Positions 19,431 through 39,701 of a DNA stretch of 51,746 nt are shown here, one piece after another; positions within the stretch are counted from its first letter, which is position 1, and the number at the start of each line of letters is the position of its first letter. The position numbers and the translations under genes are program-made. The notes under the pieces were generated by a model. It was not told the origin of the DNA and did not search any database. It saw only the letters and a list, made by a program, of their open reading frames with translations. The DNA comes from Scytonema hofmannii PCC 7110 (lineage in GTDB: Bacteria > Cyanobacteriota > Cyanobacteriia > Cyanobacteriales > Nostocaceae), in the NCBI RefSeq assembly GCF_000346485.2, contig NZ_KQ976354.1, forward strand, positions 6,299,510 to 6,351,255, in the 5' to 3' direction.

Positions 19431-20672
19431 ATGCGTAAGCCTGTTTTGACCATTTTCTACCAATTTAATCCTTGGAATAGCACTATCGGTGGTATTCAAA
19501 CACTCATTAACACCTTCATTAAATATGCACCTAGCGAATTTGAAGTCAGACTTGTAGGGACAGGATGCGATAAGCCGGGTACGGCTTGCGCCAAAGGCGA
19601 TCGCCATCAAACTATTGGTCAATGGGAAGTGAAAGAATTTGCTGGTAAAAAAATTCGTTTTTTGCCTTTATTAGCATTGCAAAACGATAACGTGAGAAGT
19701 CGAATACCAACAACATTCAAGTATACAGCAGCTCTTTTAAGACATTATTGTGACTCCGACTTTCTACACTTCCATCGACTAGAACCAACGCTAGCATCGC
19801 TTCAGTGGCGGGGAGAGAAAACCCTGTTTATTCATAATGATATTCAAACACAAATGCAAGGAGTCGGTGACGCAAAAGCAATACTGTGGCGGAAATTTCC
19901 GACTGCTTATTTTGCCCTAGAAAAGTTGTTAGTACGTCAATTTAACCAAATCCTCTCATGCAACACTGATGCAACAGAGTTATACAAAGAGCGTTATCCA
20001 AAGATTGCAAATCGTGTTGCGTATATCAAAAATTCATTTGACAACGAAATTTTTTACCCCTTGAATTCCACAGAACGAGAAGTTCAAAGACGCGAACTAG
20101 CTACTAGGTTGGGGTTATCGGAAAACACGCGGTTTGTTTTATTTGCAGGGAGACTGCATCCACAAAAAGATCCCATTTTGCTAGTTCGTGCGATTTCTGC
20201 TTTAAGAGAAGCCAATATTCACCTACTTATAGCTGGAGATGGGGAGTTAACAGCAGAAGTCAGTGCGGAAATTGAGCGATTAGGTGTGTCTGATAGAGTC
20301 ACGATGTTGGGCGCACTGACTCAGAGTGAGTTAGCACATTTACATCGTATATGTCAAGTTTTCGTTCTAACGAGTGCTTATGAAGGTTTACCTTTGGTAG
20401 TTCTAGAAGCGCTTGCTAGTGGAACCCCAGTCGTGACAACTGAATGTGGTGATACTCCAAAATTACTGAAGCCAAATAGCGGAATTGTATGTTCTGAACG
20501 TACCCCAACTTGTATTGCGGATGCTTTAAACAACGTGCTCCTGCATCCAGAAAACTATCCTATCGATGCTTGCGTGCAGAGTGCAAACCCCTATGCTGCA
20601 AGTACTGTAGTCACTCAAGTTTTTCACCAGATGTGGCAGCGCTGGGAAGAGCGATGTCTTGCAGCTGGCTAA
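19431..20672 (+). CDS. Glycosyltransferase family 4
   Basis: I start at ATG 19431 (MRKPVLTIFYQFNPW); a TTG 33 bp upstream is less likely. The 413-residue protein has two Rossmann domains. The C-terminal half carries RFVLFAGRLHPQKDP and the nucleotide-sugar EX7E motif in EGLPLVVLEALASGTPVVTT, as in retaining GT-B family 4 enzymes. It is first in the exopolysaccharide cluster and probably adds a sugar to the lipid-linked repeat unit. In the N-terminal domain, residues about 46-58 (DKPGTACAKGDR) are an in-frame insertion of a 30-bp interspersed repeat in a surface loop. Donor and acceptor cannot be read. Confidence 0.9.
   Translation: MRKPVLTIFYQFNPWNSTIGGIQTLINTFIKYAPSEFEVRLVGTGCDKPGTACAKGDRHQTIGQWEVKEFAGKKIRFLPLLALQNDNVRSRIPTTFKYTAALLRHYCDSDFLHFHRLEPTLASLQWRGEKTLFIHNDIQTQMQGVGDAKAILWRKFPTAYFALEKLLVRQFNQILSCNTDATELYKERYPKIANRVAYIKNSFDNEIFYPLNSTEREVQRRELATRLGLSENTRFVLFAGRLHPQKDPILLVRAISALREANIHLLIAGDGELTAEVSAEIERLGVSDRVTMLGALTQSELAHLHRICQVFVLTSAYEGLPLVVLEALASGTPVVTTECGDTPKLLKPNSGIVCSERTPTCIADALNNVLLHPENYPIDACVQSANPYAASTVVTQVFHQMWQRWEERCLAAG
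19567..19605 (+). repeat. In-frame 30-bp hairpin repeat, one copy
   Basis: One unit starting GCGATAAGCCGGGTACGGCT and ending in the HIP1 octamer. The stem AAGCCG-GGTA-CGGCTT is fully paired. It encodes DKPGTACAKG inside the GT4 protein. Related copies lie at 22883 and 39124. Confidence 0.9.
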
Positions 20673-20760
20673 TCATTTTTTTGCCTAAAATTGCTGCATT
20701 GAGAGGCAGATAGGCACTTTATCTTCACGTACACCTAACAAATAATTTGGAGCAATACAA

Positions 20761-21951
20761 ATGAGTTTGAAAATTGCTGTTATTGGGGCAAAAGGACTGC
20801 CTCCCAAGCAGGGCGGTATCGAGCATTATTGTGCAGAAATTTATCCTCGCATGGTGGCACGAGGCAATGATGTCGATTTATTTGCTCGGTGTTCTTATAC
20901 TGAGAGTGGTTGGGCTGAACGTTACGAATTTCAAGGTGTGAGAGTTATCCCTCTACCTGGTTTGCAAATGAGAGGAATCGATGCCTTTGTGACATCGGCA
21001 TTAGGAGCGATCGCAACTTCGGGAAAAAAATACGATATTGTACATTTCCACGCTCTCGGTCCATCTTTATTTACCTTTTTACCCAAACTGGTTACCCCGG
21101 CAAAAGTTGTTGTCACCTGTCAGGGCTTGGATTGGCAACGTGCAAAATGGGGCAAATTTTCGACTCGGATGATTCAAATGGGAGAGAAAGCAGCCGTTCG
21201 GTTTGCTGATGGGCTGGTAGTAGTTTCTGATGCACTTCAAAATTATTTCTTACAAACTTACGATCGGGAAACAGTTTACATTCCCAACGGTCCTGCAACC
21301 TACGGTGAATCTGATCCAAAATTTACCTATGGCACTTCGCTGGGTTTAGAGCCAGAACGTTATATCTTATTTTTAGGCAGAATTGTACCGGAAAAACGTC
21401 CCGATCTACTTGTTGAAGCTTTTAGTCGCCTAAAACCTGCGGGATGGAAACTGGTATTAGCTGGAGGCGTGAGCGATACCAAAATATTCACTTCCCAAGT
21501 TCTGGAAAAGATTTCCAAGAATCACAATATGGTATTTGCAGGAGAACTTCAAGGTTCTCGACTATGGGAAATTGTCCGTGGAGCGGGTTTATTTGTTCTT
21601 CCTTCAGATTTGGAAGGATTACCTCTAGCTATGTTAGAAGCAATGCAGCAAGGAGTACCTGTAGTAGCCAGTGATATACCACCTCACCAGCAATTGATTG
21701 GTGAAGATCGGGGAATGTTGTTTGAAGCAGGAAATGTAGATTCTTGTATTCGTTCCCTAGACTGGGCGATTCATCATCATGACAAGATAAAGCTCATGGG
21801 TAACAAAGCACAAAAGTACGTGCAACAAAACTATAGCTGGGAACGGATTACAACCGAGAACCTCAAACTTTATGAAACTCTTTCTGGCTTACCTGGTGGA
21901 TACTTAAGCGAGAAAAACAAGAGTTTCCAGTTAAAACCAGCGAATACCTAG
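20761..21951 (+). CDS. Glycosyltransferase family 4
   Basis: The 396-residue GT-B enzyme opens with KIAVIGAKGLPPKQGGIEH, a marker of a cyanobacterial and actinobacterial GT4 subgroup (DUF1972-like N-terminus). It has GLVVVSDALQNYF, FLGRIVPEKRPDLLVEA and the EX7E motif in EGLPLAMLEAMQQGVPVVAS. It follows the first GT4 by 88 bp and precedes the GH74-like gene by 12 bp. Probably a second sugar-adding step on the cytoplasmic side; substrates unknown. Confidence 0.9.
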   Translation: MSLKIAVIGAKGLPPKQGGIEHYCAEIYPRMVARGNDVDLFARCSYTESGWAERYEFQGVRVIPLPGLQMRGIDAFVTSALGAIATSGKKYDIVHFHALGPSLFTFLPKLVTPAKVVVTCQGLDWQRAKWGKFSTRMIQMGEKAAVRFADGLVVVSDALQNYFLQTYDRETVYIPNGPATYGESDPKFTYGTSLGLEPERYILFLGRIVPEKRPDLLVEAFSRLKPAGWKLVLAGGVSDTKIFTSQVLEKISKNHNMVFAGELQGSRLWEIVRGAGLFVLPSDLEGLPLAMLEAMQQGVPVVASDIPPHQQLIGEDRGMLFEAGNVDSCIRSLDWAIHHHDKIKLMGNKAQKYVQQNYSWERITTENLKLYETLSGLPGGYLSEKNKSFQLKPANT

Positions 21952-21963
21952 TGGTGTACGCAG

Positions 21964-24327
21964 ATGTCGGTCATTAACTCAAGCATTTCACTGATGAAAG
22001 AAAGACAGCGTACATTATCTTTGAAAAGGTTGCTTTTACTGCTTCAAGCAGCCAAGATAACGGATGGGCAAGGTTTTTACGGAAAATCGAAAACACAAAC
22101 TGTATACTGGCTTTGCTTGTTTTTTACTGCTCAAATTTTCATATTATTATCAGTGATTTTTCTGAGAACAATAGTAGTGAAGAGTGCTAGTTTTGATAGT
22201 AAGACGAGATTGCAAATTCTTAAACCAAAGGTGACTTCTGAGTGGAAAAACGTTGCTATAGGAGGAGGAGGTTATGTCACTGATATCTATCTCCACCCCC
22301 AGGAATCAAGTTTGGTTTATATCAGAACAGATAATGGAGGATTCTTTCGGTGGAATCTCAAGGAAGAAAGCTGGATACCTCTGACAGACCATCTAACTTC
22401 TTTGGACATTAATTATTCTGGTGGAGAAGCATTAGCTGTCGATCCTAAAAATCCAAATGTTGTGTACATAGCTGCGGGTAAATATTTAGGGTCTCCAGGT
22501 GCAATCTTTAAGTCTCAAGATCGGGGTAAGACTTGGATAAAGTCAAATTTGCAAATACCAATGGGGGGTGATCTCAATAAGCGATGGACGGGGAATAGAT
22601 TGGTTGTTAGTCCAAGGGATTCCAATATCTTGTTATTTGGTTCCCGACAAAACGGTTTGTGGCGATCTAACGATGGTGGAACAAATTGGTTTCAAGTGAA
22701 GAGTTTACCCGCAAAACCTGACCCCAAAATTGGAATTTTAGCGATCGCTTTCGATCCAAAAGTACCCAATCAGGCTTACTTAAGCGCTTACGGAGATGGG
22801 GTATACCAATCCCAAGATGGGGGAATGAACTGGAGCAAAATACCTGGTAGCCCCGAAAAAGCTATGAAGTTAGCAGTCAGTTGCGATAAGCTCGGTACGG
22901 CTTGCGCCAAGGGCGATAAGCTGGGTACAGCTTGCGCTAAGAGCAAACGCACTTTGTATGTTACGAGTGCAAGTACTCCTGGTGTCAGCAAATTTGTCAA
23001 TGGAGCATGGCGCGATATCACCCCACCTTGGCTTACCCATAAGGTTTTCAATGGTTTGAGCACTCATCCAAAAAACCCTCAAGAAGTATTGGTTGCTTTA
23101 GGGGAAACTGGTTCTGCCAAAATCTTTCATTCCCACAATGGAGGAAACTCCTGGACGGAAAAAAGAGCCAAGATTCACAATACAGTGTCTTGGTGGTCTG
23201 AAAAATTTTTTAGCGACCATACCTCAGCCATTGAGTTTAACCCCCAAACCCCAAATCAAGTTTGGTTAACTGATTGGTTTGGAGTGTGGCGCACGGAGAA
23301 TATCAACACTGACCCCACCCTTTGGAAAAACTACACAAGAGGACACGAACAAGTTGTGACTTTCACTCTTGTTTCACCTCCTTCTGGGGCTTTGCTCTTA
23401 AGTGGGATTGCAGATGTAGAAGGGTTTTACCACAACTCTTTGTACGCTTATCCTAGAAAACGCCTTGAATATACTAAAGTAGGCTTTTTTCAAGAACACT
23501 TTCAAGATACTTACAGCATTGCTTACAGTGCTAATCAGCCAAAGTCTTTAGTCCGAGTAGGAGGCGATCGCTGGAACTCTAATTATGGTGGAGCGACTTC
23601 CAAAGATGGAGGCTTGACATGGCAGCAATTTCCTAAATTCCCGGCTAACACCATACCACTACGAGTCTCTAGCTCAGCAAACGATCCTAAAAACTTTGTA
23701 GTTGTTGTCAAAGAAGGGAAACCCTTGCAAACAAGAGATGGTGGGAAGTCTTGGCGAACAGTGTCTGGTTTACCAAATGGTTTCCCCGGACGTAAATTTC
23801 CCGGTCCTTGGATTTGGTCTCAACCCTTAACGGCTGATGGAGTCAAAGGAAATAGGTTTTACTACTACGCAGACGGTAAGTTTTACCGGAGTGATGATGG
23901 AGGTTTAACCTTTAGCCCCATTAATACCTCCTTACCAAAAGCAAATCATTTTTCAGTAAAAACTATGCCCCATGTTGAGGGAGAAGTTTGGGTTGGTTTA
24001 GACGAAAAAGGACTGTATCACTCTACAAATGGAGGTAAGACTTTTCACAAAATTCCTCAAGTTAAAAGAGCAAAACTGATCTCTTTAGGCAAAGCACCTC
24101 AAGATAGCTCTACCTCTGTTTTGTATCTTTACGGAACTGTAGCTAGCCAAACTGAAGGAATTTTCTCCTCTTTAGATAGGGGAAACAGTTGGAGAAGTAT
24201 CGCGGAACCTTCTACCCCTGTTGGAGAACAAGTGAATGTTTTAGAAGCCAGTCAACAACAATTTGGTTTAGTTTTTATTGGTACTAGTGGTAGAGGAGTT
24301 TATTTCCGACAAGTTTCTCACAAATAG
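21964..24327 (+). CDS. Membrane-anchored GH74-like beta-propeller protein
   Basis: The 787-residue protein has an N-terminal membrane anchor (about 41-68), then two seven-bladed-propeller-like regions. BNR/Asp-box patterns recur (S-x-D-x-G-x-x-W, e.g. SQDRGKTW, SNDGGTNW, SQDGGMNW). The opening of the extracellular part, GGGGYVTDIYLHP...YIRTDNGGFFRW...WIPLTD, follows the GH74 xyloglucanase signature. Both catalytic-type aspartates seem present: D123 in RTDNGG and D484 in SGIADVEGF. In this locus it probably trims or remodels the exported polysaccharide. An insertion of two 30-bp repeat units sits at about residues 308-327. Family placement is by motif; activity is inferred. Confidence 0.75.
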   Translation: MSVINSSISLMKERQRTLSLKRLLLLLQAAKITDGQGFYGKSKTQTVYWLCLFFTAQIFILLSVIFLRTIVVKSASFDSKTRLQILKPKVTSEWKNVAIGGGGYVTDIYLHPQESSLVYIRTDNGGFFRWNLKEESWIPLTDHLTSLDINYSGGEALAVDPKNPNVVYIAAGKYLGSPGAIFKSQDRGKTWIKSNLQIPMGGDLNKRWTGNRLVVSPRDSNILLFGSRQNGLWRSNDGGTNWFQVKSLPAKPDPKIGILAIAFDPKVPNQAYLSAYGDGVYQSQDGGMNWSKIPGSPEKAMKLAVSCDKLGTACAKGDKLGTACAKSKRTLYVTSASTPGVSKFVNGAWRDITPPWLTHKVFNGLSTHPKNPQEVLVALGETGSAKIFHSHNGGNSWTEKRAKIHNTVSWWSEKFFSDHTSAIEFNPQTPNQVWLTDWFGVWRTENINTDPTLWKNYTRGHEQVVTFTLVSPPSGALLLSGIADVEGFYHNSLYAYPRKRLEYTKVGFFQEHFQDTYSIAYSANQPKSLVRVGGDRWNSNYGGATSKDGGLTWQQFPKFPANTIPLRVSSSANDPKNFVVVVKEGKPLQTRDGGKSWRTVSGLPNGFPGRKFPGPWIWSQPLTADGVKGNRFYYYADGKFYRSDDGGLTFSPINTSLPKANHFSVKTMPHVEGEVWVGLDEKGLYHSTNGGKTFHKIPQVKRAKLISLGKAPQDSSTSVLYLYGTVASQTEGIFSSLDRGNSWRSIAEPSTPVGEQVNVLEASQQQFGLVFIGTSGRGVYFRQVSHK
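22883..22942 (+). repeat. In-frame 30-bp hairpin repeat, two copies
   Basis: Two tandem units encode DKLGTACAKG and DKLGTACAKS in the GH74-like protein. The first has a stem with one T-G wobble and one mismatch; the second has a perfect AAGCTG-GGTA-CAGCTT stem. They lie between two propeller strands, so probably in a surface loop. Confidence 0.9.
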
Positions 24328-24393
24328 ATTCTGTTCGTAGTAGCGCTTTAGCGCATACATCGCAATAAAAACAACTACAAACATCCCACTAGC

Positions 24394-25800
24394 ATGACTA
24401 AGACTGTAACAATTCCTAACTTTCATACCCCTTTAATTTCCAAAAAAATATTAAGTTTAATATCTTTTTGGCTGCTCGCAAACGTAACGATATGGGGAGT
24501 GGCTTTACTATACTTAAAACAAAAATCTCCTAGCTATAAAAGCCAGTGGACTATCTCTTTACCTGCTGCTAAATCATCTACAAAAGTTTCTGTACCTGGA
24601 ATTGGTGAAGCTTCTTCTTCCAGCGATTCTCCATTTGCAAGCCAGTCATCAGATCCCAGAGAAAACTACAAATTTATTGCTCAAACTGAAGAAGTTCTCA
24701 CAGCAGCAGCTCGCGAACTCAAAATACCTCCTAAGAAGTTTGGAAAACCAAAGATTAAAATTTTAGATAATACAACTCTCATACAGTTTGAAATCGAAGG
24801 AGATAGTCCAGAAGAGGCTCAAAAAAAGGCAATTGTTCTTCAAAAGACTTTGGAAGACCAATTAGACGAATTGAGAAAAGTAGAAATAGCCAAACAAGAC
24901 CAAAATTTGGAGGTTGTACTGGGTACAGCAGAGAAAAAATTGCAAGCAGCACAGCAACGCCTTGCTGAATATCAAACTCGTTCCCGTCTCAGTTCCAACG
25001 AACAGCTACAAGATCTATCTCAAAATATTGAAGCATTACGTCGCCAAAGAGCAGAAACTTTTGCTCAATTACGACTTGTCAGTGCTAGATTGAGACAACT
25101 TTCTGTAAGTTTAGGTTTATCGTCACAACAAGCAGTTGATGCTTTAACACTGCAATCCAATCAGGTATTTCAGCTTTACTTAACTGATTACGGCAAAGTC
25201 AGTGCAGAGTTAACTCATTTAAGTGCTAAATATTTAGTTTCTCACCCTGTAGTGATTACCAAGGAAGAAGAAAAAAACGCTGCTTTAACTGCACTGTTGC
25301 AGCAAGCAAAATCTTTGTTGGGACGCTCTGTTTCTTTATCATATCTACAACAATTAAATATTAGTGGTGGTGCTTCAGGAAACTCATCTGCACAAAGAGG
25401 GACGCTTTTCCAAGAATTAATTTCACTACAGACACAACAACAAGGACTGCAAGCCCAAGCTCAAGAGTTTGAAGAACAGATTAAGCAGCTCGAATCTAGA
25501 CTAACAATACTCACTCAGCAAGCTTCAAAATTAGACAATTTGCAACGGAATACCAAAATAGCAGAAGCTGTTTTTTCTTCTACTTTAACAAGATTGGATG
25601 TCAGCAAATCTAATATTACGGCTTCCTATCCACAAACTGTAGTTTTATCAAAGCCCAATTTACCAGAAGACGCTAGCGGACCTAAAGATAAAATTGTGCT
25701 GCTAGGTACAGTTATAGGCTCTCTATTTTTAACAACGGGAACAATATCTCTAGGATTAATTGCTAACAAAAATCAACGCATTAAACCCAGAAAATTGTAA
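24394..25800 (+). CDS. Wzz-like polysaccharide co-polymerase (no kinase domain)
   Basis: The 468-residue protein has two membrane spans, near residues 22-42 and at the C-terminus (IVLLGTVIGSLFLTTGTISLGLI). Between them lies a long periplasmic domain with extended coiled coils (about 155-390, rich in Gln/Leu/Glu). A proline-rich segment before the second span (KPNLPEDASGPK) matches the Wzz/GumC class. Such proteins set chain length and help export. No Walker-type tyrosine kinase domain follows, so regulation by a fused BY-kinase is absent. It precedes the polymerase-like gene. Confidence 0.85.
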   Translation: MTKTVTIPNFHTPLISKKILSLISFWLLANVTIWGVALLYLKQKSPSYKSQWTISLPAAKSSTKVSVPGIGEASSSSDSPFASQSSDPRENYKFIAQTEEVLTAAARELKIPPKKFGKPKIKILDNTTLIQFEIEGDSPEEAQKKAIVLQKTLEDQLDELRKVEIAKQDQNLEVVLGTAEKKLQAAQQRLAEYQTRSRLSSNEQLQDLSQNIEALRRQRAETFAQLRLVSARLRQLSVSLGLSSQQAVDALTLQSNQVFQLYLTDYGKVSAELTHLSAKYLVSHPVVITKEEEKNAALTALLQQAKSLLGRSVSLSYLQQLNISGGASGNSSAQRGTLFQELISLQTQQQGLQAQAQEFEEQIKQLESRLTILTQQASKLDNLQRNTKIAEAVFSSTLTRLDVSKSNITASYPQTVVLSKPNLPEDASGPKDKIVLLGTVIGSLFLTTGTISLGLIANKNQRIKPRKL

Positions 25801-25840
25801 ATCAAAATATCTATTTTTTTCATATAAAAAAGTCAAAAAA

Positions 25841-27097
25841 GTGAATCCCAACCCAATCAAGCCACAAAATTTACCTGAAGCTCTCATTTGGTACTACATT
25901 CTATTTACTTATCTTATATATTTACTGGGAGCGCAATTTTTAATAGCTCCAATTTTAGCTTCTTTTTTAGCCTTTTGCACATTTAAAAAATGGTGTCAAC
26001 AAAATGAGAATACTCCCTTAGAGGAAAGAGTAGAAATTTCAACTATCGTATGGATTTGGTTAATTGCTGTATTCATTATTGAAGTAGCTTTGATTGTTGG
26101 ACAATCCAATTTTGATTTGGGGATGGGACAAATTTTGAAATCCTCATTGAATTGGTATAGGACTTGGATGCTATTAGTTTTATTTCTAATCGCCGGTCAT
26201 CTTAATATCAGACCACAACTAGTTTATCGCTCTATTTGTATACTTGGATTTCAAACCTTAATTATAGTTTTTGTTGCCAATATCGCTAATCTTTTACATT
26301 TGCCTGATTTCTACTATCTTTCTCCATTAAAAATTTTTGGAGGTGTGCGAACTAGCTATGAAGTTTACTTATTTTATATTTTTGATGATGGTGAAAGACG
26401 CATGCAATTATTTGCTCCTTGGCCTCCTGCTTTAGGTATGATTGGTAATCTATATTTTTTTATTGCCTTACAAGAAAACAATAAAAAGTGGCGATTGGCT
26501 GGTATGGCTGGTAGCATCGCTATGATTGTTGTATCTGTATCTAGAGCAGGCTTTTTGTGCCTTCCCTTGGTTTTAGGTGTCAGGTGGTTATTAACAAATT
26601 TTCTACGTCCTTGGGTACAGTTAGCTACAGGTTGTGTGAGTACTGTAGCAACTATAGCTGCACCAACTTTAATAAATCTAATAACTACTTTTAAAGAAGA
26701 TTTGAGTAAGGCTCGTGCTGGTTCTTCAAAAGTACGCGAAACTCTACAACGCATGGCAATAGAACTTTGGTGGAATGAAGCTCCTATTTGGGGACATGGT
26801 CGTTTGGAAGAATCCGGTCCAGCACTTGTAGGGAAAATGCCAATTGGTTCTCATCATACCTGGTTTGGAATTTTATATGCTCACGGATTGGTTGGGTGTA
26901 TCGCCTTAGTCTTAGCTTTAATATCTAGTTTTGTTTACTTACTGATTCAGGTTAGAAATCACCATTTGGCTATGTTAGGACTGAGTATTCTTATAACTAT
27001 GATTTTCTTTAGTTTTGGAGAAAATATTGATGGTTTTACGTATGTATATTGGCCGGCATTACTAATTTTAGGTATGGCTTATGGTAAAAGCTCATAA
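25841..27097 (+). CDS. O-antigen polymerase/ligase-like membrane protein (Wzy/WaaL type)
   Basis: The frame is open from 25760, overlapping the previous gene; I favour the GTG at 25841 (VNPNPIKPQN), which avoids the overlap, though no clear ribosome binding site supports either. The 418-residue product has about ten membrane spans. A large extracytoplasmic loop holds GHGRLEESGPALVGKMPIGSHHTWFGILYAHG, the H-x-T/N-W/Y motif seen in O-antigen ligases and polymerases. It should join repeat units on the outer face of the membrane. Assigned by topology and this loop; Wzy versus ligase is undecided. Confidence 0.8.
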   Translation: MNPNPIKPQNLPEALIWYYILFTYLIYLLGAQFLIAPILASFLAFCTFKKWCQQNENTPLEERVEISTIVWIWLIAVFIIEVALIVGQSNFDLGMGQILKSSLNWYRTWMLLVLFLIAGHLNIRPQLVYRSICILGFQTLIIVFVANIANLLHLPDFYYLSPLKIFGGVRTSYEVYLFYIFDDGERRMQLFAPWPPALGMIGNLYFFIALQENNKKWRLAGMAGSIAMIVVSVSRAGFLCLPLVLGVRWLLTNFLRPWVQLATGCVSTVATIAAPTLINLITTFKEDLSKARAGSSKVRETLQRMAIELWWNEAPIWGHGRLEESGPALVGKMPIGSHHTWFGILYAHGLVGCIALVLALISSFVYLLIQVRNHHLAMLGLSILITMIFFSFGENIDGFTYVYWPALLILGMAYGKSS

Positions 27098-31941: not shown

Positions 31942-32928
31942 ATGGCTACTATATCTGTTATTATCCCTGCTTACAATGCAGAACACACAATTCGTGAAAC
32001 AATTGCTTCCGTACAAAATCAAACTTTTTCCGATTTTGAAATTATTGTTATTGATGACCAGTCACGCGATCGCACTTTAGAAGTACTGCACGCTATTCAA
32101 GATGAGCGACTCAAAGTATTCTCCTACGAAAATGGAGGAGCCTCAGTTGCACGCAATCGTGGAATTGATCATGCTACAGGAGAATTTATAGCCTTTCTTG
32201 ATGCTGACGATTTATGGACTCCCAACAAGTTAGAGCGACAAATTGAAGCTTTACAAAAAAATCCTGAAGCAGGCGTTGCTTATAGCTGGACTTACTACTT
32301 CTTCAAAGATGAAAAATCTTCTTATATCGAAAAGTCGAATTGTTTTGAAGGTAATGTCTACGCTAATTTGCTTGTCACCAACTTTTTACATAATGGTTCT
32401 AATCCACTAGTTCGGCGAAAGGCAATAGATTCTGTTGGGTTGTTCGATCCTAACATTAGATCGGTTGAAGACTGGGACTATTGGCTGAGATTATCAGCTA
32501 AGTGGAACTTTGTTCTGGTACGCGAACCACAGATAATTTACCGCCAGCACTCCCAGTCAGTATCGGAAAACATTGAAGCAATGGAAAAAAATTGTCTGGC
32601 TTTAGTAGATAAATCTTTTCAAACAGCGCCACAAGAGCTTCAATTTCTTAAAACACGGACTTTAATTGTTATCTATCAATATTTAGCACAAAAGTATTTA
32701 AACCGTGCATCCCACAGTTATAAAGATGTAAATTTTGCCGGACAGAAACTTTGGGCAGCTATTTGCTTGCAACCCAAAATTCTGTTAGAACAGTATACTC
32801 AAAGTTTAATCCGAGGCTTTCTTAAAAAATGGATTTTTACACAATTACTCCCTTCTCGCCAGAAGATTACTTATGAAAAACCAATACCCGTGAATGAAAT
32901 TGATTCAAATCGGGAAACCTTTGTTTAG
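31942..32928 (+). CDS. Glycosyltransferase family 2
   Basis: I start at ATG 31942 (MATISVIIPAYNAEHTI); a TTG 21 bp upstream is unlikely. The 328-residue enzyme is closely similar to the one at 28305: IIVIDDQSRDRT, GGASVARNRGIDHATGEF, AFLDADDLW (DxD) and SVEDWDYWLRLS. It is the last gene of the exopolysaccharide cluster. The strong likeness across the whole length points to a duplication within the cluster; distinct variable middle regions suggest different sugars. Confidence 0.92.
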   Translation: MATISVIIPAYNAEHTIRETIASVQNQTFSDFEIIVIDDQSRDRTLEVLHAIQDERLKVFSYENGGASVARNRGIDHATGEFIAFLDADDLWTPNKLERQIEALQKNPEAGVAYSWTYYFFKDEKSSYIEKSNCFEGNVYANLLVTNFLHNGSNPLVRRKAIDSVGLFDPNIRSVEDWDYWLRLSAKWNFVLVREPQIIYRQHSQSVSENIEAMEKNCLALVDKSFQTAPQELQFLKTRTLIVIYQYLAQKYLNRASHSYKDVNFAGQKLWAAICLQPKILLEQYTQSLIRGFLKKWIFTQLLPSRQKITYEKPIPVNEIDSNRETFV

Positions 32929-33282
32929 CAAGGGATACAAGTTTTAAGTTCAGACGGTAATGATTAACCCACAGAACCCAATATTACTCGGATAAGCAGA
33001 AATTAGAACCCCAATAAATCAGTGCGAAACAGGGGTTCAAGATAGACCCCCATGGGCGATCGCCTCCGGTACGCTTCGTGATCGCTCACCACTAAGTGTG
33101 AAAATTCCTCTTCCCTATCCCCTAACCCACCCCCAACGCCTCTCCCAGTTTAGGGAGTTGGGGGTGACAAATGTCAGGAGCGCAAAATAAGGACTGTACG
33201 TTCGCTCATTTTTGAAGGGTGAGAGGAATTAATGCCTGACAGGGTAAGGAAAAACCTCATAAGGAATGAGATTGTGCTGATA
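32929..33282. other. Non-coding spacer with HIP1-type repeat
   Basis: No ORF is supported. At 33055-33090 a GCGATCGCC...GGTACGCTTCGTGATCGC sequence is a non-coding relative of HIP1-rich repeats. A second palindromic stretch lies near 33130-33170 (CCCCAACGCC / GTTGGGGGTG). This spacer separates the polysaccharide cluster from an accessory islet. Confidence 0.5.
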
Positions 33283-33366
33283 CCGTGTAATACGTGGTAA
33301 AGGGTAGAGGGGAGTAACGGTGTAATACATGGAAAAAGAAAATGAGAGGTTCCGTGTATTACATGG
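33283..33366. repeat. Three iteron-like palindromes (CCRTGTAWTACAYGG type)
   Basis: CCGTGTAATACGTGG (33283-33297), CGGTGTAATACATGG (33318-33332) and CCGTGTATTACATGG (33352-33366) are nearly palindromic 15-mers spaced 35 and 34 bp, roughly three helical turns. Regular phasing suggests protein binding sites such as plasmid iterons or a multi-site operator. Confidence 0.7.
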
Positions 33367-33384
33367 TGTATGAGAACAAAAAAG

Positions 33385-33444
33385 CCTTACACTGAACAAT
33401 AAACTCGTACCCTAAACAATAAAGTCCTACACTGAAACCCTACT
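33385..33444. repeat. Three ~20-bp direct repeats
   Basis: Three degenerate direct repeats follow one another without spacer: CCTTACACTGAACAATAAAC, CGTACCCTAAACAATAAAGT and CCTACACTGAAACCCTACT. They start 19 bp after the last palindrome. Together the two arrays resemble an origin or control region rather than coding DNA. Confidence 0.65.
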
Positions 33445-33483
33445 AAAAAAGACACTGCTCCGCTGCCTTTGGGTATCCGAAAG

Positions 33484-33710
33484 AGCGATAAGCCGCAAAC
33501 TTAACGGCTTACGTCGTATCGCTTCTTTTAAAGTATTAAAGAGCAGCTATTGAGGTCGGCAAACTTTGAGATACTAAGACCGTAAGGCTCTCAATACTGC
33601 AAGGGCTGAGAAAATTGTCGCGTGAGACAGGCACCTTTGTGCAGGGGAGGAAAAAACGGCTTAACCGACGAGTATTGGTAAGGCTCTAAAAACTCCTCCT
33701 TAGGATTAAC
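33484..33710 (+). ncRNA. Candidate structured RNA, unknown class
   Basis: Several hairpins follow one another. AGCGATAAGCCG pairs with CGGCTTA and TATCGCT (33484-33523). TTGAGA pairs with TCTCAA (33566-33594). GCAC-CTTT-GTGC is a short stem, and GGAGGA near 33647 can pair with TCCTCC near 33694. No ORF covers it. I do not recognise a known family (not tmRNA, 6S or RNase P RNA). Strand and limits are guesses. Confidence 0.3.
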
Positions 33711-33713
33711 TAA

Positions 33714-33796
33714 TCGACTATGTCAGTAATCGACTATCAAAGTATTCGATGTAAGTTGTATAATTACATAATAAATGCTAATATTCGACTAGTCGA
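33714..33796. promoter_or_regulatory. TCGACTA sites upstream of the XRE gene
   Basis: TCGACTA occurs at 33714 and 33730 (16 bp apart). A perfect 12-bp palindrome, TCGACTAGTCGA, lies at 33785-33796, 38 bp before the XRE start codon. This looks like an operator set for autoregulation by the adjacent XRE protein. Confidence 0.55.
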
Positions 33797-33833
33797 GTAT
33801 TCTGCTACTATTTGATATGTCAATTTATTAGAT

Positions 33834-34049
33834 ATGAATAAGGTAATGTTTTGTAAATTAAAACAATACATGGATACGGAAGGGTTAAATATAGCTCAAC
33901 TATCTAGAGAGATAGGTGTTACAGAAAATGCTATACGCGGTTATGTTAAAAACTCTTTTAGCCGTATTGATTGTCAAGTCGCTATGAAAATATGCGATTA
34001 CTTTCAAGTAAATGTAGGTGAAATGTTTGTCATTAAGGAAAATATATAA
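33834..34049 (+). CDS. XRE-family helix-turn-helix regulator (71 aa)
   Basis: This small protein is almost only a Cro/C1-type helix-turn-helix: LKQYMDTEGLNIAQLSREIGVTENAIRGYVKN, then IDCQVAMKICDYFQVNVGEMFVIKE, the typical fifth helix of short XRE regulators. An ATG at 33846 is an alternative start. Palindromic TCGACTAGTCGA sites precede it, suggesting autoregulation. It lies 2 bp upstream of the coiled-coil gene, so the two form an operon. Such regulators are common on plasmids and phages. Confidence 0.85.
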   Translation: MNKVMFCKLKQYMDTEGLNIAQLSREIGVTENAIRGYVKNSFSRIDCQVAMKICDYFQVNVGEMFVIKENI

Positions 34050-34051
34050 CA

Positions 34052-34453
34052 ATGACTAACGCTAACAACGGTAACAACAATAACAGCCAAGAAATTTACG
34101 CCATATTAGCCGAACTAGCTAGAAGACAATTACAGACAGAAAATAATTTACAACGCACTCAAGAACAAATCGAACGCACCCAACTGCAAATAGACGCTAC
34201 TCAACAGCAGTTAAGCGCTACTCAATATGAAGTAGAATCGCTGACAAACGACGTTACCCGCATATTGGGACGTAGCGCTATTTTAGATGACGTACTGTTA
34301 GAAATGCGTAATAGTAACCAAGCTATGCAAGCTAATTTTGAGCGTCATATAGAAAATTATGAAGAGCATAAACGAACTACTAACGCGGCATTAAATAGCC
34401 TTGAAGCTATCAATATTAGGCTTATTCAAATCATTACAGGCGACCAAAACTAA
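34052..34453 (+). CDS. Coiled-coil protein of unknown function (133 aa)
   Basis: After an Asn-rich N-terminus (TNANNGNNNNSQ), residues about 14-75 form a long Gln/Glu/Thr-rich coiled coil with a repeated RTQ/QIxxTQQQ pattern. A short linker (RILGRSAILDDVLLEMRNSNQAM) and a second helix follow. There is no signal peptide or catalytic motif. It is co-transcribed with the XRE regulator (2-bp gap). Similar small coiled-coil proteins occur on cyanobacterial plasmids and beside regulators, but I cannot name a family. Confidence 0.7.
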   Translation: MTNANNGNNNNSQEIYAILAELARRQLQTENNLQRTQEQIERTQLQIDATQQQLSATQYEVESLTNDVTRILGRSAILDDVLLEMRNSNQAMQANFERHIENYEEHKRTTNAALNSLEAINIRLIQIITGDQN

Positions 34454-34475
34454 TAAGGAGGAAAATTAAAAACTA

Positions 34476-34556
34476 GTGCCTATAACAGAACAACTAAAAA
34501 CCTTTTTTCGTATCTGCATTCACCTTAGAGAAACTATCAATTTTTGCAAGGTTTAG
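34476..34556 (+). pseudogene. Possible 5' remnant of a third operon gene (26 codons)
   Basis: A strong AAGGAGG follows the coiled-coil gene by a few bases, and a GTG fourteen bases later opens MPITEQLKTFFRICIHLRET before a stop at 34556. The ribosome binding site without a real gene suggests a truncated downstream gene. It runs into the abnormal 3' end of the convergent FGE-like gene. Confidence 0.25.
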
Positions 34557-35227
34557 TGCAATTCGTAGTAGGATTCGCGTCCTAAATGCTGTACGTATGT
34601 TTCCACCAAGTTTTGAAGAGTATCGGGAAGCCCGATATTAATCCAGTCATCAACTGAACCCAAAAAACAGTATCTTTGCAGCTCGAAAAGTCCAAAAGAA
34701 TTAGCAACTTGAAAGTATCCAACTTCTGTTGTTTCTTCACGGTAGAAGCCTTTGGGACCTCTGCCATAGTAACCGGGGCGGAAAATTCCATTAATGAATC
34801 TACCCGTCCCATCATAATTTGCTAAATCTGTTGTGATAGTTGCACCAAAGTGAAATGGTGTGGTTGTTCCTCCACAGCAAGCATACTCCCATTCTGCTTC
34901 AGTTGGTAATCGATAGGGTTTACCAGTTTTGTTGGTTAATCTGGCACAAAACTCATTCGCATCTTCCCAAAATGCACACTCAATTGGTCGATTTACTCCT
35001 TTAAAGTTGGCTATGTCAGATTCTAGATCGATATTAATTTTCGGTAAGTTAGTAACAGCTATCCATTGAGCTTGAGTCACTGGAAATTTACTGATAAGGA
35101 AGGATGAAATCGTAACGCGGTGCTTTGATCCCTCTGTTTCTATCCACTCCGGTTCTCCCTGAGGTGAACCCATGAAGAAAGTATCGCCGGGAATCAAAAC
35201 CATTTCTAAAGCAATTTCATTCCCCAC
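34553..35227 (-). CDS. Formylglycine-generating-enzyme-like (SUMF1) protein with abnormal C-terminus
   Basis: The GTG start at 35227 has AGGAG about 11 bases upstream. Residues 1-175 follow the FGE/SUMF1 fold: LEMVLIPGDTFFMGSPQGEPEW, HRVTISSFLISKFPVTQAQW, NRPIECAFWEDANEFCARLTNKTGKPYRLPTEAEWEYACCGGTTTPFHFG, and TTEVGYFQVANSFGL. The family should continue with a GNVWEW segment and a RGGSW block; instead about 45 unrelated residues follow (LFELQRYCFLGSVDDW...YYELH). Neither other frame restores GNVWEW, so this is a replaced or deleted C-terminus rather than a single frameshift. Probably inactive. Confidence 0.7.
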   Translation of the reverse strand: MGNEIALEMVLIPGDTFFMGSPQGEPEWIETEGSKHRVTISSFLISKFPVTQAQWIAVTNLPKINIDLESDIANFKGVNRPIECAFWEDANEFCARLTNKTGKPYRLPTEAEWEYACCGGTTTPFHFGATITTDLANYDGTGRFINGIFRPGYYGRGPKGFYREETTEVGYFQVANSFGLFELQRYCFLGSVDDWINIGLPDTLQNLVETYVQHLGRESYYELH

Positions 35228-35516
35228 AACAACAAAATCTCCTATTTTGCCGAAAGATTATCTCTGTCCGATCGCTTTCAGAATTCCTAGACTAGTAATT
35301 GAAGTCAATGAACAAGCAACCAACTGAAGTGAGAAGTGTCAACTTACCTCACCTGTAAAGGGATGAGGTATGAAGAGATCGCGACATTGAAAAGAACTTT
35401 GATCGGGTGTTCAATAACGACTCATTGCCACATATATTGACTGCATCTTTTAGATAAAGTTCCACTTGATAATTGTAATGCAATCAAAACCATAAGTAAA
35501 CTAGGAGTATATAAAA

Positions 35517-38500
35517 ATGGATCGAAATATTTCCCAAGAACAACCTCAGACTGAGAAGCCATCCTCTTATCAACGACAACAAGTCCCCATTGCGATCGTT
35601 GGAATGTCTTGCTTCTTTCCCAAAGCTAAAAATTTGCAGGAATATTGGAATAATATTGTTGGTAAAGTAGATTGTATCACCGATGTACCCCCTTCCCGTT
35701 GGGACATAAAAGACTACTACGATCCAGACCCCAAAGCTCCTGATAAAACCTACTGCAAGCGGGGTGGCTTCCTTCCGGACATCGAATTTAATCCAATGGA
35801 GTTTGGATTGCCTCCCAGTATACTCGAAGCAACTGATATCGCCCAGTTACTCTCGCTGATCGTTGCAAAAGCAGCAATGGAGGATGCGGGTTACGGTGAA
35901 TCTCGCAATTTTAGTCGAGAACGCACTGGAGTTGTCCTAGGTATCGTCGGAGGATGCATGCAATTGATTGTTCCTCTGACGACACGATTGCAATATCCTG
36001 TTTGGGAAAAAGTTCTGAGTAGCAGTGGTCTATCGGAAGAAGATACGCAAAAAATTATTGAGAAAATGAAACTGGCGTATGTGGGCTGGGAAGAAAATTC
36101 TTTTCCAGGTTGGCTGGCTAATGTGGTTGCTGGACGTATTGCTAACCGCTTGGATTTGGGAGGAATGAACTGTGTTGTGGACGCCGCTTGCGCCAGTTCG
36201 CTGGTATCTATCAAAATGGCGATGAGCGAGTTGATTGAGGGTCGCAGCGACATGATGATCGCAGGTGGGGTTGAAGCTGATGCTTCTGCTTTCAACTATA
36301 TGTGTTTTAGCAAAACGCCTGCTTCATCTAAAAAAGAGTTTTTGAATCCCTTTGATGTCACATCAGATGGCATGATGATTGGTGAAGGGATCGGGATGTT
36401 AGTGCTCAAACGTCTTGAGGATGCTGAACGGGATGGCGATCGCATTTATGCTGTCATCAAAGGCGTAGGTACTGGTAGTGACGGTCGATACAAGAGTATT
36501 TATGCTCCTCGTCCGGAAGGACAAGTCAGAACTTTGCGTCGCGCCTATGAAGATGCAGACATTTCCCCGACAAGTGTTGGTCTGCTCGAAGCTCACGGTA
36601 CGGGAACCCCAGCCGGTGATTTGTGTGAAGTCACTGCTCTCAAAGAAGTTTTCAGCGAAAACAACCCCAATCAACAGCACATTGCGCTTGGGAGTGTTAA
36701 ATCCCAGATAGGACACACTAAAGCAGCCGCCGGAGCCGCAAGTTTAATCAAAGCTGCTCTTGCTCTACATCACAAGATTCTACCACCAACTCTAAATGTC
36801 ACCCAACCCAATCCCAAGTTTAAGCTTGAGGAATCTCCATTTTACCTCAACACAGAATCTAGACCTTGGTTCCAAACAGAACCAGGGACACCAAGACGTG
36901 CGGCGGTGAGTTCATTTGGTTTTGGTGGGACAAATTACCACGTGGTTTTAGAAGAGCATACTAGCGAACATCAAGATGCTTACCGCCTACACTCTGTTCC
37001 TCAGTCAATCCTACTTTGGGCTGAAAGTCCAGAACAGTTGTTAGAAAAGTGCGAAACCGTCTACTCGCAGCTAAAATCCGATCGGAGCGATCGCTATTAC
37101 ACCGAACTTCTTAACTCTTGTAAATCCGTCGCTCCCGTCGCCTCAGCCAGAGTGGGTTTTGTTGCAACATCACAGGATGAAGCAGGTGAATTGCTACAAA
37201 CAGCGATTCATCAGCTGAAAAAACAACTGCACTCCGCGTCTTGGGAACATCCTCGTGGTGTCTACTACCGCAAAACGGGTTTATCCCTCCAAGGAAAAGT
37301 CGTAGCTCTCTTTCCCGGACAGGGTTCCCAATACTTAAATATGGGGCTGAAATTAGCAAATAACTTTCCCGTCCTGCGCCAAGTTTACAACTCTTTGGAC
37401 AATCTTTTCATTCAAGATGGTTTGCAACCCCTCACTCAAGTCGTGTTCCCCAACCCTACATTTGACAGCGATCGCAAAGCCAGTGACATTCAAAAGTTGC
37501 AGCAAACAGAAAATGCTCAACCAGCCATTGGTGCGTTAAGTGCGGGTCTATACAAAATCTTAAAGCAAGCGGGATTCCAACCAGACTTCGTTGCGGGACA
37601 TAGCTTTGGAGAACTAACGGCTCTTTGGGCTGCTGAGATTTTAAGTGATGCAGATTACTGTTACCTTGTTAAAGCTAGAGGTCAAGCAATGAGTAGCCCA
37701 CACAATGGTGCTGATTGCGATGCAGGAACTATGCTAGCTGTCAACGGGGATGTTCAGTCTATCTTAAATATCATCAAACCCCTGTCCCATCTCAGTATTG
37801 CCAACTATAATTCTCCAAATCAGGTCGTGCTTTCTGGAGCCAAACCAGAAATCGCAGTCATACAACAAATTCTAACCAAACGCGGGTTTTCTGTCACGCC
37901 ACTCCCCGTATCAGCAGCATTCCATTCCCGGTTTGTCAATCATGCGAGCAAACCATTTTCTAAGGCTATTGAATCCGTCACCTTCAACAGCCCTAAAATC
38001 CGAGTGTATTCCAACACCACAGGAGAAGCTTATGCAAGCGATTCGGAAACAATTAAAACAACACTAGAAGCTCATCTTCTCAAATCGGTTCGGTTTACAC
38101 AAGAAATTGAAAATCTTTACGCTGCGGGTGGTTACTGCTTTGTAGAAATCGGTCCCAGACAAATTCTGACCAATTTTGTTAAGAGTATTCTTGGCGATCG
38201 CCCTCATCTTGCTATAGCCTTAAATCCCAGTCGAGAAAAAGACAGCGACCTACAATTGCGACAAGCAATGATGCAGTTGCGCGTAGCTGGATTACCTTTA
38301 CAAGATTTAGACCCCTATCAAATTGAGCCTTCTACCGTTGGAACTGCTAAAAGCAGCCCATTAAACATAGTCCTTAGTGGAAGTAATTATGTTAGTGAAA
38401 AAACAAAAACAGCATTTGAGCAAGCTTTGCAGGATGGTCATAAGATTGGAGCGCCTGTTGCTCATCCCGAAATGATTCCTGTCGCTGCAAATCTCAACAC

Positions 38501-39701
38501 AGAAGAGATCATTTCTTGGGAAATACCCGAAGCCACTCCTTCAGCAACAAAAATAAATGCAGAGATAATTTCCTCAGAAATATCCGAAATCGACCATGCT
38601 GAATGTGTAGCTATAACTATCAATAAAGATGTGATGTCCTGGGAGTTACCCGAAGCTACAGATTCCGACACAGACGCAATACTCACTCAAACTATTGCTA
38701 CAACATCTCAGTACGCCTTCGCGGATACTCCCAACTCAACAAATTTTCAAACCATTGTTCCTATAATCGAGACAAACAATATGTTGCAACCTATGACTCA
38801 ACCTTCTTCTAATCTGCAAGGTACAAACGGTACTGTAGAGAAAATCCTGCTTCATTTTTACAGTCATCAATCAGACGTGCTGCGGGTACACGAACAATAT
38901 CTTCAGAGCCATGCAGAATCTTCTCGCTCGTTTTTCCAGTTGATGCAACAATACAATCAACCTCAATTAACCAGTCACAACAACTCCCATTGGGTAGAGT
39001 TTGCACCAGAGGTAACACCAACTAACGCTCCTCAAGCTAACCTAGTTGCTAACGAAGTCTCCAAAACAGATGCTCACTCAGCTGTGACTCAAACAATTGA
39101 GCAAGACAACAAACCCCAGACAAGCGATAAGCTGGGTACAGCTTGCGCCAAGGGCGATAAGCCGGGTACGGCTTGCGCTAAGAGCGATAAGCTGGGTACA
39201 GCTTGCGCCAAGGGCGATCGCACTTTGGCTTTTACCGCACCAGTTGCTCAACCACAGGCTACCCCAGTCAAGACATCAGACACTCTACTGACACAGCCAG
39301 ATAGAGAACCAAAGTCTCCTTCCACAACAGTTGCAGCACCTGTTGAGTACATTCCTACCCCGGTTCCACAAACCAGTCCATCTCCTCAAGTCGAGACCTT
39401 AACCCCATCATCAGTAGAGTCTGGCGATGACCCTTCCGTCACCCAAGCCCTCTTAGAAACAATTAGTAACAAGACAGGCTATCCAACAGAAATGTTAGAG
39501 ATGGAAATGGACTTAGAAGCAGATTTGGGTATTGACTCCATCAAACGAGTAGAAATTATCGGTGCAATGCAGAACCAATTCCCCAACTTACCCCGGTTAA
39601 GTCCAGATGAATTGGGAGAACATCTCACCATCGGTAAGATTGGAAGTTATCTAAGCAAAAAGCTCGCAGAGGCTAAAAAAAAATGCCTCAGTCACGCCTG
39701 A
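35517..39701 (+). CDS. PfaA/HglE-like synthase: KS-MAT-ACP (1394 aa)
   Basis: An AGGAG lies about ten bases before ATG 35517. The ketosynthase (about 20-480) has a complete triad: C225 in DAACASS, H360 in EAHGTGTPAGD, H400 in SQIGHTKAA. The malonyl-type acyltransferase (about 600-930) starts LFPGQGSQYLNMG and has S696 in GHSFGELT. After a long Ser/Thr/Pro-rich linker comes a single ACP with S1341 in DLGIDSIKRVE. This is the first part of PfaA-like secondary-lipid synthases (PUFA and heterocyst-glycolipid type), which normally carry several ACPs and continue into KR and DH; here those parts are separate genes. The linker contains three 30-bp repeat units (about residues 1203-1235). The DSIKRVE motif is diagnostic of Pfa-type ACPs. 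Confidence 0.92.
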   Translation: MDRNISQEQPQTEKPSSYQRQQVPIAIVGMSCFFPKAKNLQEYWNNIVGKVDCITDVPPSRWDIKDYYDPDPKAPDKTYCKRGGFLPDIEFNPMEFGLPPSILEATDIAQLLSLIVAKAAMEDAGYGESRNFSRERTGVVLGIVGGCMQLIVPLTTRLQYPVWEKVLSSSGLSEEDTQKIIEKMKLAYVGWEENSFPGWLANVVAGRIANRLDLGGMNCVVDAACASSLVSIKMAMSELIEGRSDMMIAGGVEADASAFNYMCFSKTPASSKKEFLNPFDVTSDGMMIGEGIGMLVLKRLEDAERDGDRIYAVIKGVGTGSDGRYKSIYAPRPEGQVRTLRRAYEDADISPTSVGLLEAHGTGTPAGDLCEVTALKEVFSENNPNQQHIALGSVKSQIGHTKAAAGAASLIKAALALHHKILPPTLNVTQPNPKFKLEESPFYLNTESRPWFQTEPGTPRRAAVSSFGFGGTNYHVVLEEHTSEHQDAYRLHSVPQSILLWAESPEQLLEKCETVYSQLKSDRSDRYYTELLNSCKSVAPVASARVGFVATSQDEAGELLQTAIHQLKKQLHSASWEHPRGVYYRKTGLSLQGKVVALFPGQGSQYLNMGLKLANNFPVLRQVYNSLDNLFIQDGLQPLTQVVFPNPTFDSDRKASDIQKLQQTENAQPAIGALSAGLYKILKQAGFQPDFVAGHSFGELTALWAAEILSDADYCYLVKARGQAMSSPHNGADCDAGTMLAVNGDVQSILNIIKPLSHLSIANYNSPNQVVLSGAKPEIAVIQQILTKRGFSVTPLPVSAAFHSRFVNHASKPFSKAIESVTFNSPKIRVYSNTTGEAYASDSETIKTTLEAHLLKSVRFTQEIENLYAAGGYCFVEIGPRQILTNFVKSILGDRPHLAIALNPSREKDSDLQLRQAMMQLRVAGLPLQDLDPYQIEPSTVGTAKSSPLNIVLSGSNYVSEKTKTAFEQALQDGHKIGAPVAHPEMIPVAANLNTEEIISWEIPEATPSATKINAEIISSEISEIDHAECVAITINKDVMSWELPEATDSDTDAILTQTIATTSQYAFADTPNSTNFQTIVPIIETNNMLQPMTQPSSNLQGTNGTVEKILLHFYSHQSDVLRVHEQYLQSHAESSRSFFQLMQQYNQPQLTSHNNSHWVEFAPEVTPTNAPQANLVANEVSKTDAHSAVTQTIEQDNKPQTSDKLGTACAKGDKPGTACAKSDKLGTACAKGDRTLAFTAPVAQPQATPVKTSDTLLTQPDREPKSPSTTVAAPVEYIPTPVPQTSPSPQVETLTPSSVESGDDPSVTQALLETISNKTGYPTEMLEMEMDLEADLGIDSIKRVEIIGAMQNQFPNLPRLSPDELGEHLTIGKIGSYLSKKLAEAKKKCLSHA
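39124..39221 (+). repeat. In-frame 30-bp hairpin repeat, three copies
   Basis: Three tandem units encode DKLGTACAKG, DKPGTACAKS and DKLGTACAKG and end with GCGATCGC. Stems alternate AAGCTG-GGTA-CAGCTT, AAGCCG-GGTA-CGGCTT and the first again, so stem pairing is kept by paired changes. They lie in the MAT-ACP linker of the synthase. Confidence 0.92.

Follow-up and report, generated by a model that had tools for sequence, protein, structure and literature searches.

A small hairpin repeat in three genes

The window, the whole stretch of 51,746 nt from Scytonema hofmannii PCC 7110 that was analysed, contains six units of a short repeat within three genes, and each array closes on the octamer HIP1 or a decayed form of it. 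The features are as follows.

19398..20672, + strand: GT4 glycosyltransferase gene (PF00534), host of unit 1, with 10 added residues after about residue 57
19567..19596, + strand: unit 1, 30 nt, C:G in hairpin 1, CAAAG module, within the GT4 gene
19572..19587, + strand: hairpin 1 of unit 1, AAGCCG-GGTA-CGGCTT, from fold and covariation
19589..19599, + strand: hairpin 2 of unit 1, CGCC-AAA-GGCG, holding the second covarying pair, from fold and covariation
19597..19604, no strand: HIP1 octamer GCGATCGC, closing unit 1
21964..24327, + strand: propeller protein gene matching Sortilin-Vps10/PSII_BNR, host of units 2 and 3, lengthened by about 20 residues from residue 307 on
22883..22912, + strand: unit 2, 30 nt, T/G at the covarying pair, one stem mismatch
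22913..22942, + strand: unit 3, 30 nt, T:A stem, TAAGA module
22943..22950, no strand: decayed HIP1 GCAAACGC, closing unit 3
35517..39701, + strand: ketoacyl synthase–acyltransferase gene with a long linker, host of units 4 to 6, which add 30 residues to the linker
39124..39153, + strand: unit 4, T:A stem, CAAGG module
39154..39183, + strand: unit 5, C:G stem, TAAGA module
39184..39213, + strand: unit 6, T:A stem, CAAGG module
39214..39221, no strand: HIP1 octamer closing the triple array

The units begin with GCGATAAGC at 19567, 22883, 22913, 39124, 39154 and 39184, exactly where they had been predicted, and the translation of each is DKxGTACAK(G/S). This starting sequence is expected 0.29 times in the window by chance, and its seven matches were reached in none of 100 shuffles; the seventh, at 33485, is the start of a different hairpin. 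As had been reported, five of the six reading frames are open, and the sixth contains TAA. The stem ascribed to every unit is fully paired in five of the six and is mismatched in the first unit at 22883 (AAGCTC/CGGCTT). The terminal HIP1, a second hairpin in the units and the predicted three-way junction that HIP1 halves close in single units were not part of the original prediction, which also called the propeller gene GH74-like. No match to Rfam was obtained in the window at gathering score.

Relatives without the insert had been suggested for comparison, and the motif is absent from the examined relatives of all three host proteins: from all 19 GT4 relatives fetched, from the eight propeller relatives examined of 29 fetched, and from the ketoacyl synthase–acyltransferase relatives L265–L276. 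Two of the GT4 relatives, L155 and L163, have an exact empty HIP1.

Amplification within one genus

Among the genomes sampled, amplification of the repeat is confined to one genus. The repeat core has 174 matches at ≤2 mismatches in its own 12.3-Mb genome (reversed-pattern control, 0) and 63 matches at ≤1 mismatch in the genome of a congener; in 424 further genomes sampled from the order, the count per genome is zero to two. Exact copies in the own genome number 130, of which 129 fall within the stretches analysed, and our list of 146 units includes at least one chance match. Nostoc punctiforme was not among the five named organisms matching the pattern, in a collection that may not contain its genome. 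A plasmid search returned 13 weak matches, none in cyanobacteria, and an exact match was not found in IMG/VR. There is no clear strand signal from GC skew, for which 62 of 113 arrays show a positive value on the strand of the element.

Insertion at HIP1

The mobile piece, typically 28 or 30 nt, consists of AAGCYGGGTACRGCTTGCGC, a short module and GCGAW, and its target is the cyanobacterial octamer HIP1, in which it is placed at GCGAT^CGC. The left G of HIP1 is kept in 104 of 113 arrays and the left C in 112, neither being imposed by the search, and GCGAT flanks many units on both sides. At the right, GCGAACGC is found at 19/91 element ends vs 28/488 free sites (p=1.6e-5).

Comparison of filled and empty alleles supports mobility, as inferred from exact presence and absence at HIP1 between related sequences. 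The own and congener genomes differ by exactly 30 nt at five sites. Exact 30-nt gaps occur at 3442976, 887703, 6420263 and L210, and the gap at 11523860 is split into 8 and 22 nt; at 887703 and 6420263 the congener has exact empty HIP1 sites. An exact empty HIP1 is likewise present in L298, whose 98.7%-identical counterpart L167 is filled; the right end in L167 is GCGAACGC, and the empty allele reads GCGATCGC. When 15 own sites were compared with the congener by alignment, three (329406, 6146254 and 8055786) proved too diverged to judge, and at 3438668 the element is absent from the congener with no clean junction. Seven sites are filled in both congeners, a number enriched by the choice of congener stretches mostly around the congener's own copies. 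Several units at these shared sites differ in type, which replacement could explain; at 299037 the two genomes differ in the module together with both bases of the stem pair.

In a short-chain dehydrogenase gene, the own genome and those of three named genera share the same 28-nt unit at a single HIP1 site, and searches of those three genera's genomes found this copy only. The frame downstream of the unit is conserved (dN/dS 0.07–0.27), and in a 98.7%-identical allele the site is cleanly empty and the gene intact. We consider it very doubtful that loss of the element is as precise as its gain, with the 28-nt copies acting as reversible frame switches.

Two hairpins and their arrays

The claim that the stems are kept by paired changes is supported, in that neither covarying pair was matched by any of 10,000 shuffles. 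Hairpin 1 has its compensatory change at a single base pair, and each hairpin has a single alternating pair, almost always C:G or T:A, with few intermediates. Variants of the two hairpins are independent in the own genome (p=1.0) and weakly linked in the congener (p=0.05). A single unit together with the HIP1 halves is predicted to fold into a three-way junction closed by those halves, about equally well on either strand. The double array at 22883–22950 folds no better than its shuffles (z −1.22, 28 of 200).

All 34 adjacent unit pairs are head-to-tail. Units within arrays alternate in type; the array test used a unit list compiled by hand, kept one of three paralogous arrays and took in spacings of up to 40 nt. 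Although HIP1 is a palindrome, no opposite-strand neighbour was found within 120 nt.

Copies within genes

The original prediction envisaged a mobile coding repeat and took its constant frame as suggestive. Mobility is supported, as is a tolerance within genes like that of Rickettsia palindromic elements (RPEs), but the constant frame is not general: of 100 arrays tested, 67 lie outside called intact genes, and those in genes use all five open frames. The DKxGTACAKG frame is favoured in genes (15/32 vs 6.4 expected, p=0.002), though not exclusive, and among these 32 arrays 18 are sense and 14 antisense. A constant frame maintained by peptide selection is rejected on the genome-wide use of frames.

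Array lengths fall into two classes, multiples of three (52) and frame-breaking (48); these tests left out the 13 of 113 own arrays whose right HIP1 is not recognisable and 13 of 56 congener arrays with no right HIP1-like end. With the element in place, still-intact genes are found at 32/52 multiple-of-three arrays vs 1/48 frame-breaking arrays (p=4e-11; congener, 15/24 vs 1/19), a count inherently biased towards multiples of three, because a frame-breaking insertion shortens the open reading frame. The contrast is weaker in a fair count, for which the element was removed in silico: genes lie at 30/52 multiple-of-three vs 7/48 frame-breaking arrays (p=9e-6), and in the congener at 15/24 vs 3/19 (p=0.004). 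By the same count, multiples of three match free HIP1 sites, of which 260/460 are in genes (p=1.0), whereas frame-breaking arrays do not (p=2e-8). Since frame-breaking copies are scarce in genes and multiples of three resemble free HIP1, insertion appears to be blind to genes and the coding copies to be what has survived it. Part of the frame-breaking shortage could reflect decay instead of removal, since a gene disrupted long ago may have become unrecognisable. No host gene is claimed to be essential: the own genome has two ileS copies above the family cut-off, one of them being the copy that holds two arrays.

Discussion

The repeat is probably a non-autonomous, very small mobile element of the SDR5 kind. 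Elhai and colleagues reportedly described SDR5 as a small dispersed repeat in 2008, with hairpins bearing compensatory changes in SDR4–6 and sizes of 21–27 nt. Like SDR5, the present repeat has a structure kept by compensatory changes, here with one covarying pair per hairpin; it differs in size, its units being mostly 28 and 30 nt long when measured up to the terminal HIP1, although boundary conventions may differ. We call it a new, genus-amplified variant of this kind, likened to SDR5 by description and not by sequence. Three features reported here from our own data may already be in the SDR literature: the effect of the two lengths on the reading frame, the GCGAA right end and the alternation of units within arrays. 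According to the account in PMC4390886, SDR5 is inserted within HIP1 between nucleotides 3 and 4, so that both are very small repeats placed precisely in HIP1, at the same point as GCGAT^CGC on the other strand. Our empty and filled pairs have this insertion point except at L210, where the target is not a full HIP1 but only GAAGATCGC.

RPEs, as portrayed in PMC3767692 and PMC10969869, are also palindromic repeats within genes that leave the frame unbroken, as do the multiple-of-three arrays in called intact genes. They are 100–150 bp long (PMC3767692), however, and those accounts describe no fixed octamer target for them; here units are 28–30 nt, sit in HIP1 and mostly lie outside called intact genes in variable frame. 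REP/REPIN sequences with RAYT transposases resemble the repeat, in the description of PMC3116915, in being short DNA hairpins that have multiplied within a lineage, and that source suggests SDRs as amenable to the same style of study; the present copies differ in lying in HIP1, often inside genes and partly in tandem arrays. MITEs, as characterized in PMC10969869, are likewise non-autonomous and multicopy, but the present repeat is much smaller and lacks their usual terminal inverted repeats, and target duplication is doubtful.

We propose that the element inserts into GCGAT^CGC of HIP1 either sense or antisense to genes, that a putative trans-acting factor of the genus would copy it, most likely via a folded single-stranded three-way-junction DNA intermediate, and that copies may swap sequence through conversion. 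Within genes it would be a tolerated passenger adding 9–40 residues, with selection probably behind the shortage of frame-breaking copies. Replication template switching, in which a hairpin-arrested polymerase jumps to any HIP1 and back, would need no dedicated enzyme and would use 5–8 nt of microhomology, the element being bounded by GCGAT repeats. The flanking GCGAT, the strictly head-to-tail arrays and the varying unit types at shared sites all fit such a process; the lack of amplification in genomes with one copy and the right ends GCGAACGC, which interrupt the microhomology, make it unlikely. An RNA intermediate, reverse-transcribed or reverse-spliced, has reportedly been proposed for SDRs and would suit the stable predicted fold of the unit, yet the absence of sense bias in genes and the similar fold on both strands leave it less likely still.

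Whether nucleic-acid selection maintains the stem pairs is a separate matter. Arm-to-arm copying (quasipalindrome correction) or conversion between copies is a serious possibility, if slightly the less probable one, given that the one variable pair of each hairpin is almost always C:G or T:A and that stem and module change jointly at 299037; whole-unit conversion alone would not yield hairpins that vary independently, as they do in the own genome. Finally, a functional peptide motif DKxGTACAKG under protein-level selection in the three window proteins could account for the over-represented frame, but it is scarcely credible when genes also contain the repeat in its four remaining open frames, most arrays lie outside called intact genes and examined relatives lack the motif.

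To our knowledge there is no explanation for the movement of sequences as small as 30 nt. With a mobile element of the SDR5 kind as the probable reading, this genus offers an amplified family alongside a congener with both empty and filled sites, and within genes the two length classes serve as an internal control. Single unamplified copies in related genera should aid the search for a putative mobilising factor, and the repeat is a source of in-frame 10-residue insertions in cyanobacterial proteins.

Hairpin units at HIP1 sites

The six 30-bp hairpin units of the original prediction were found at the positions it gave, well above chance expectation, and the stem of hairpin 1 (AAGCCG/CGGCTT, or its T:A version, around a GGTA loop) is perfectly paired in five of them. 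Their host genes are:

19398-20672, GT4 glycosyltransferase gene
21964-24327, propeller protein gene, with matches to Sortilin-Vps10 and PSII_BNR
35517-39701, ketoacyl synthase-acyltransferase (KS-AT) gene with a long linker

HIP1 closes two of the window arrays (single units or runs of adjacent units), and a decayed HIP1 closes the array at 22883; across the window there are 34 HIP1 octamers, against 0.21 expected. The view that the units are insertions is supported by relatives that lack them. The motif is absent from all 19 fetched GT4 relatives, 18 of which have a gap of about 10 residues, the other (L159) having other residues and a shorter gap; two of these relatives, L155 and L163, read GGATGCGATCGCCAGCAAACT at the site, the window counterpart being GGATGCGAT-insert-CGCCATCAAACT. 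Of the 29 propeller relatives fetched, eight were examined: the extra residues are missing from seven, and the eighth is too divergent. A six-frame scan did not find the motif in the 12 fetched KS-AT relatives; the gap is clear in the best of these (L265), the linker aligning poorly in several others.

Comparison with G397, a genome of the same genus, gave 15 alignable S. hofmannii sites. Seven are common to both genomes, four (3442976, 11523860, 887703 and 6420263) are filled only in S. hofmannii with a 30-nt difference, one is absent from G397 with an unclean junction, and three are not judgeable. Conversely, the site in L210 carries the element in G397 and lacks it in S. hofmannii. At the five differing sites the gap is a single block of 30 in four and is split 8+22 at 11523860. 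Two empty sites are perfect HIP1 octamers; the target in L210 is GAAGATCGC.

In Cyanocohniella, Tolypothrix, Hassallia and S. hofmannii, a short-chain dehydrogenase gene carries an identical, frame-breaking 28-nt unit at the same HIP1 site:

L167, L237, L238 and L300 (S. hofmannii, C1:5856988), filled alleles
L298 and L299, empty alleles

The intact allele matches PF13561/PF00106. L298 is empty with an intact gene and is 98.7% identical to L167. Frame break aside, both halves of the Cyanocohniella, Tolypothrix and Hassallia alleles appear largely intact, and the upstream half of the S. hofmannii copy is degraded; downstream of the unit the frame is conserved, with dN/dS of 0.07-0.27. Because the gene tree, weakly supported in parts, intermixes filled and empty alleles, and the region appears mosaic, recombination, repeated insertion or precise loss could each have produced this pattern. 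The empty L298 reads GCGATCGC and the filled L167 GCGAT...GCGAACGC; from this comparison and that of L210, the right-end GCGAA seems to arrive with the element. Element ends read GCGAACGC more often than free sites do (19/91 versus 28/488).

Family size and distribution

The S. hofmannii genome (12.3 Mb, 39 contigs, the window lying on the 11.6-Mb contig) contains 92 forward and 82 reverse core matches at up to two mismatches, and a reversed-pattern control gave none. The exact copies listed are 49 T:A-type and 80 C-type units, and a combined exact pattern found 130. The 11.6-Mb contig (C1) has all 129 listed exact copies and the other 38 contigs none; contig C3 has one module-plus-HIP1 match. 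The flank set, window included, comprised 95 stretches (756 kb) with the 129 exact copies, 146 matches at up to three mismatches, and 113 arrays at up to two: 86 single, 23 double, 3 triple and 1 quadruple.

Among 388 genomes of the order, exact matches were confined to S. hofmannii (130) and G201 (1). In 38 further family genomes, at up to one mismatch, six matched: G397 had 63 matches and the remaining five one or two each, among them G399, whose match does not look like the element. The search of a named-genome collection, from which S. hofmannii and near genomes may be excluded, used a longer exact pattern and so passes over some variants; it gave one stretch each in Tolypothrix campylonemoides, Hassallia byssoidea, Scytonema sp. 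NIES-4073, a Cyanocohniella MAG and Brasilonema sp. UFV-L1. No IMG/VR contig had an exact match, and a plasmid search gave 13 weak matches, none cyanobacterial. Within the sampled genomes, amplification of the element is therefore confined to one genus.

Predicted structure and covariation

Together with the HIP1 halves, a single unit is predicted to fold into a three-way junction (z -3.75 on one strand and -4.14 on the other), with a GCGAT/ATCGC closing stem, a 6-bp hairpin 1 with GGTA loop, and a 4-bp hairpin 2 with a 3-nt loop. The predicted fold of the window triple array is more branched (z -5.67); that of the double array is no better than shuffles (z -1.22). The paired stem changes noted in the window recur among units of both genomes. 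At hairpin-1 pair 9/16, 217 units of both genomes have C:G in 116, T:A in 86 and other combinations in 15 (3 still paired); at hairpin-2 pair 25/29, the 121 30-nt units have C:G in 79, T:A in 33, G:T in 4 and unpaired bases in 5. None of 10,000 shuffles, a control that ignores relatedness, equalled the covariation at either pair. In S. hofmannii the states of the two hairpins vary independently (p=1.0), and in G397 they show weak linkage (p=0.05). In a scan of the stretches, perfect 6-nt hairpins after GCGAT belong to the element family in 77/80 cases in S. hofmannii and 25/27 in G397; the others include one GCTCCC-type two-hairpin relative per genome.

A seventh GCGATAAGC in the window opens a related-looking relic (33485-33522), which has the GCGAT/ATCGC closing stem and an AAGCCG/CGGCTT hairpin with a 9-nt loop; the second hairpin is absent from it.

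Reading frame and host genes

Short modules make most units 30 or 28 nt long. Elements were removed by script, and a gene was scored as an ORF of at least 150 aa, codon score at least 0.1, spanning the site. In S. hofmannii such a gene was present at 30/52 arrays of multiple-of-three length versus 7/48 others (p=9e-6). Genes contain 260/460 free HIP1 sites, a proportion that the multiple-of-three arrays fit (p=1.0) and the others fall far below (p=2e-8). In G397, where the ORF minimum was 100 aa, the counts were 15/24 versus 3/19 (p=0.004). With the element present, genes are intact at 32/52 versus 1/48 arrays, a contrast that arises partly by construction. Two of three 87-nt arrays, in which 29- and 28-nt units sum to a multiple of three, lie inside long intact genes. 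These data suggest that the element inserts without regard to genes, and that copies breaking the frame are removed or decay.

The constant reading frame seen in the window did not hold. Intact S. hofmannii genes use five frames (+1 in 15 of 32, +0 in 3, -0 in 7, -1 in 3 and -2 in 4), and none uses the closed frame +2. The preferred frame is +1 (DKxGTACAKG; p=0.002), perhaps because its peptide is hydrophilic. Pfam matches among 20 host proteins include P450, aldo/keto reductase, RND pump, peptidase M50 and ABC ATPase; three gave no match. The isoleucyl-tRNA synthetase gene ileS (L072:3194-6586), one of two ileS genes over the cut-off in S. hofmannii, carries two in-frame arrays, one double and one single, both at sites common to G397.

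Array dynamics

All 34 adjacent unit pairs are arranged head-to-tail, and no unit has a neighbour on the opposite strand within 120 nt. In S. hofmannii neighbours differ in stem type in 22/25 pairs, the expected number being 12.8-13.7 (p 1e-4 to 3e-4); slippage loss of identical neighbours could explain this alternation. A general rule of unlike neighbours is spoken against by G397, where stem types are alike in 6/7 pairs and unlike in 1/7. Because array sizes differ at common sites (between the two genomes, 4 versus 1 at 4850926 and 2 versus 1 at 5867477), as does unit type at 299037 (C:G, 28 nt versus T:A, 30 nt), the sequences suggest that copies replace one another there. G397 also has another small hairpin repeat (GCGATGCTGCAAAGCAGCCGCTTC), which lies within the element or alternates with it (L199 near 9658; L231:9678-9840).

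Relation to known repeats and possible mode of spread

Elhai et al. in 2008 reportedly described small dispersed repeats SDR1-8, of which SDR5 is said to sit inside HIP1 only. The SDRs reportedly share secondary structure with compensatory changes, and RNA intermediates are said to have been proposed for them. Beyond that work, no paper among those listed by our literature searches was recognised as a description of such elements. Passages of PMC4390886 and PMC3116915 mention small dispersed repeats, and the former places SDR5 insertion between HIP1 bases three and four. The point found here, GCGAT^CGC, read on the other strand, is that same third/fourth-base point. We class the element, by description, as a new SDR5-like variant that is not necessarily SDR5 itself.

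The element is precisely placed, differs in presence and absence between genomes, and has a frame effect. Template switching is a possible means of its spread, as is an RNA route. In the mechanism that we propose, a trans factor specific to the genus would act on folded single-stranded DNA at HIP1.
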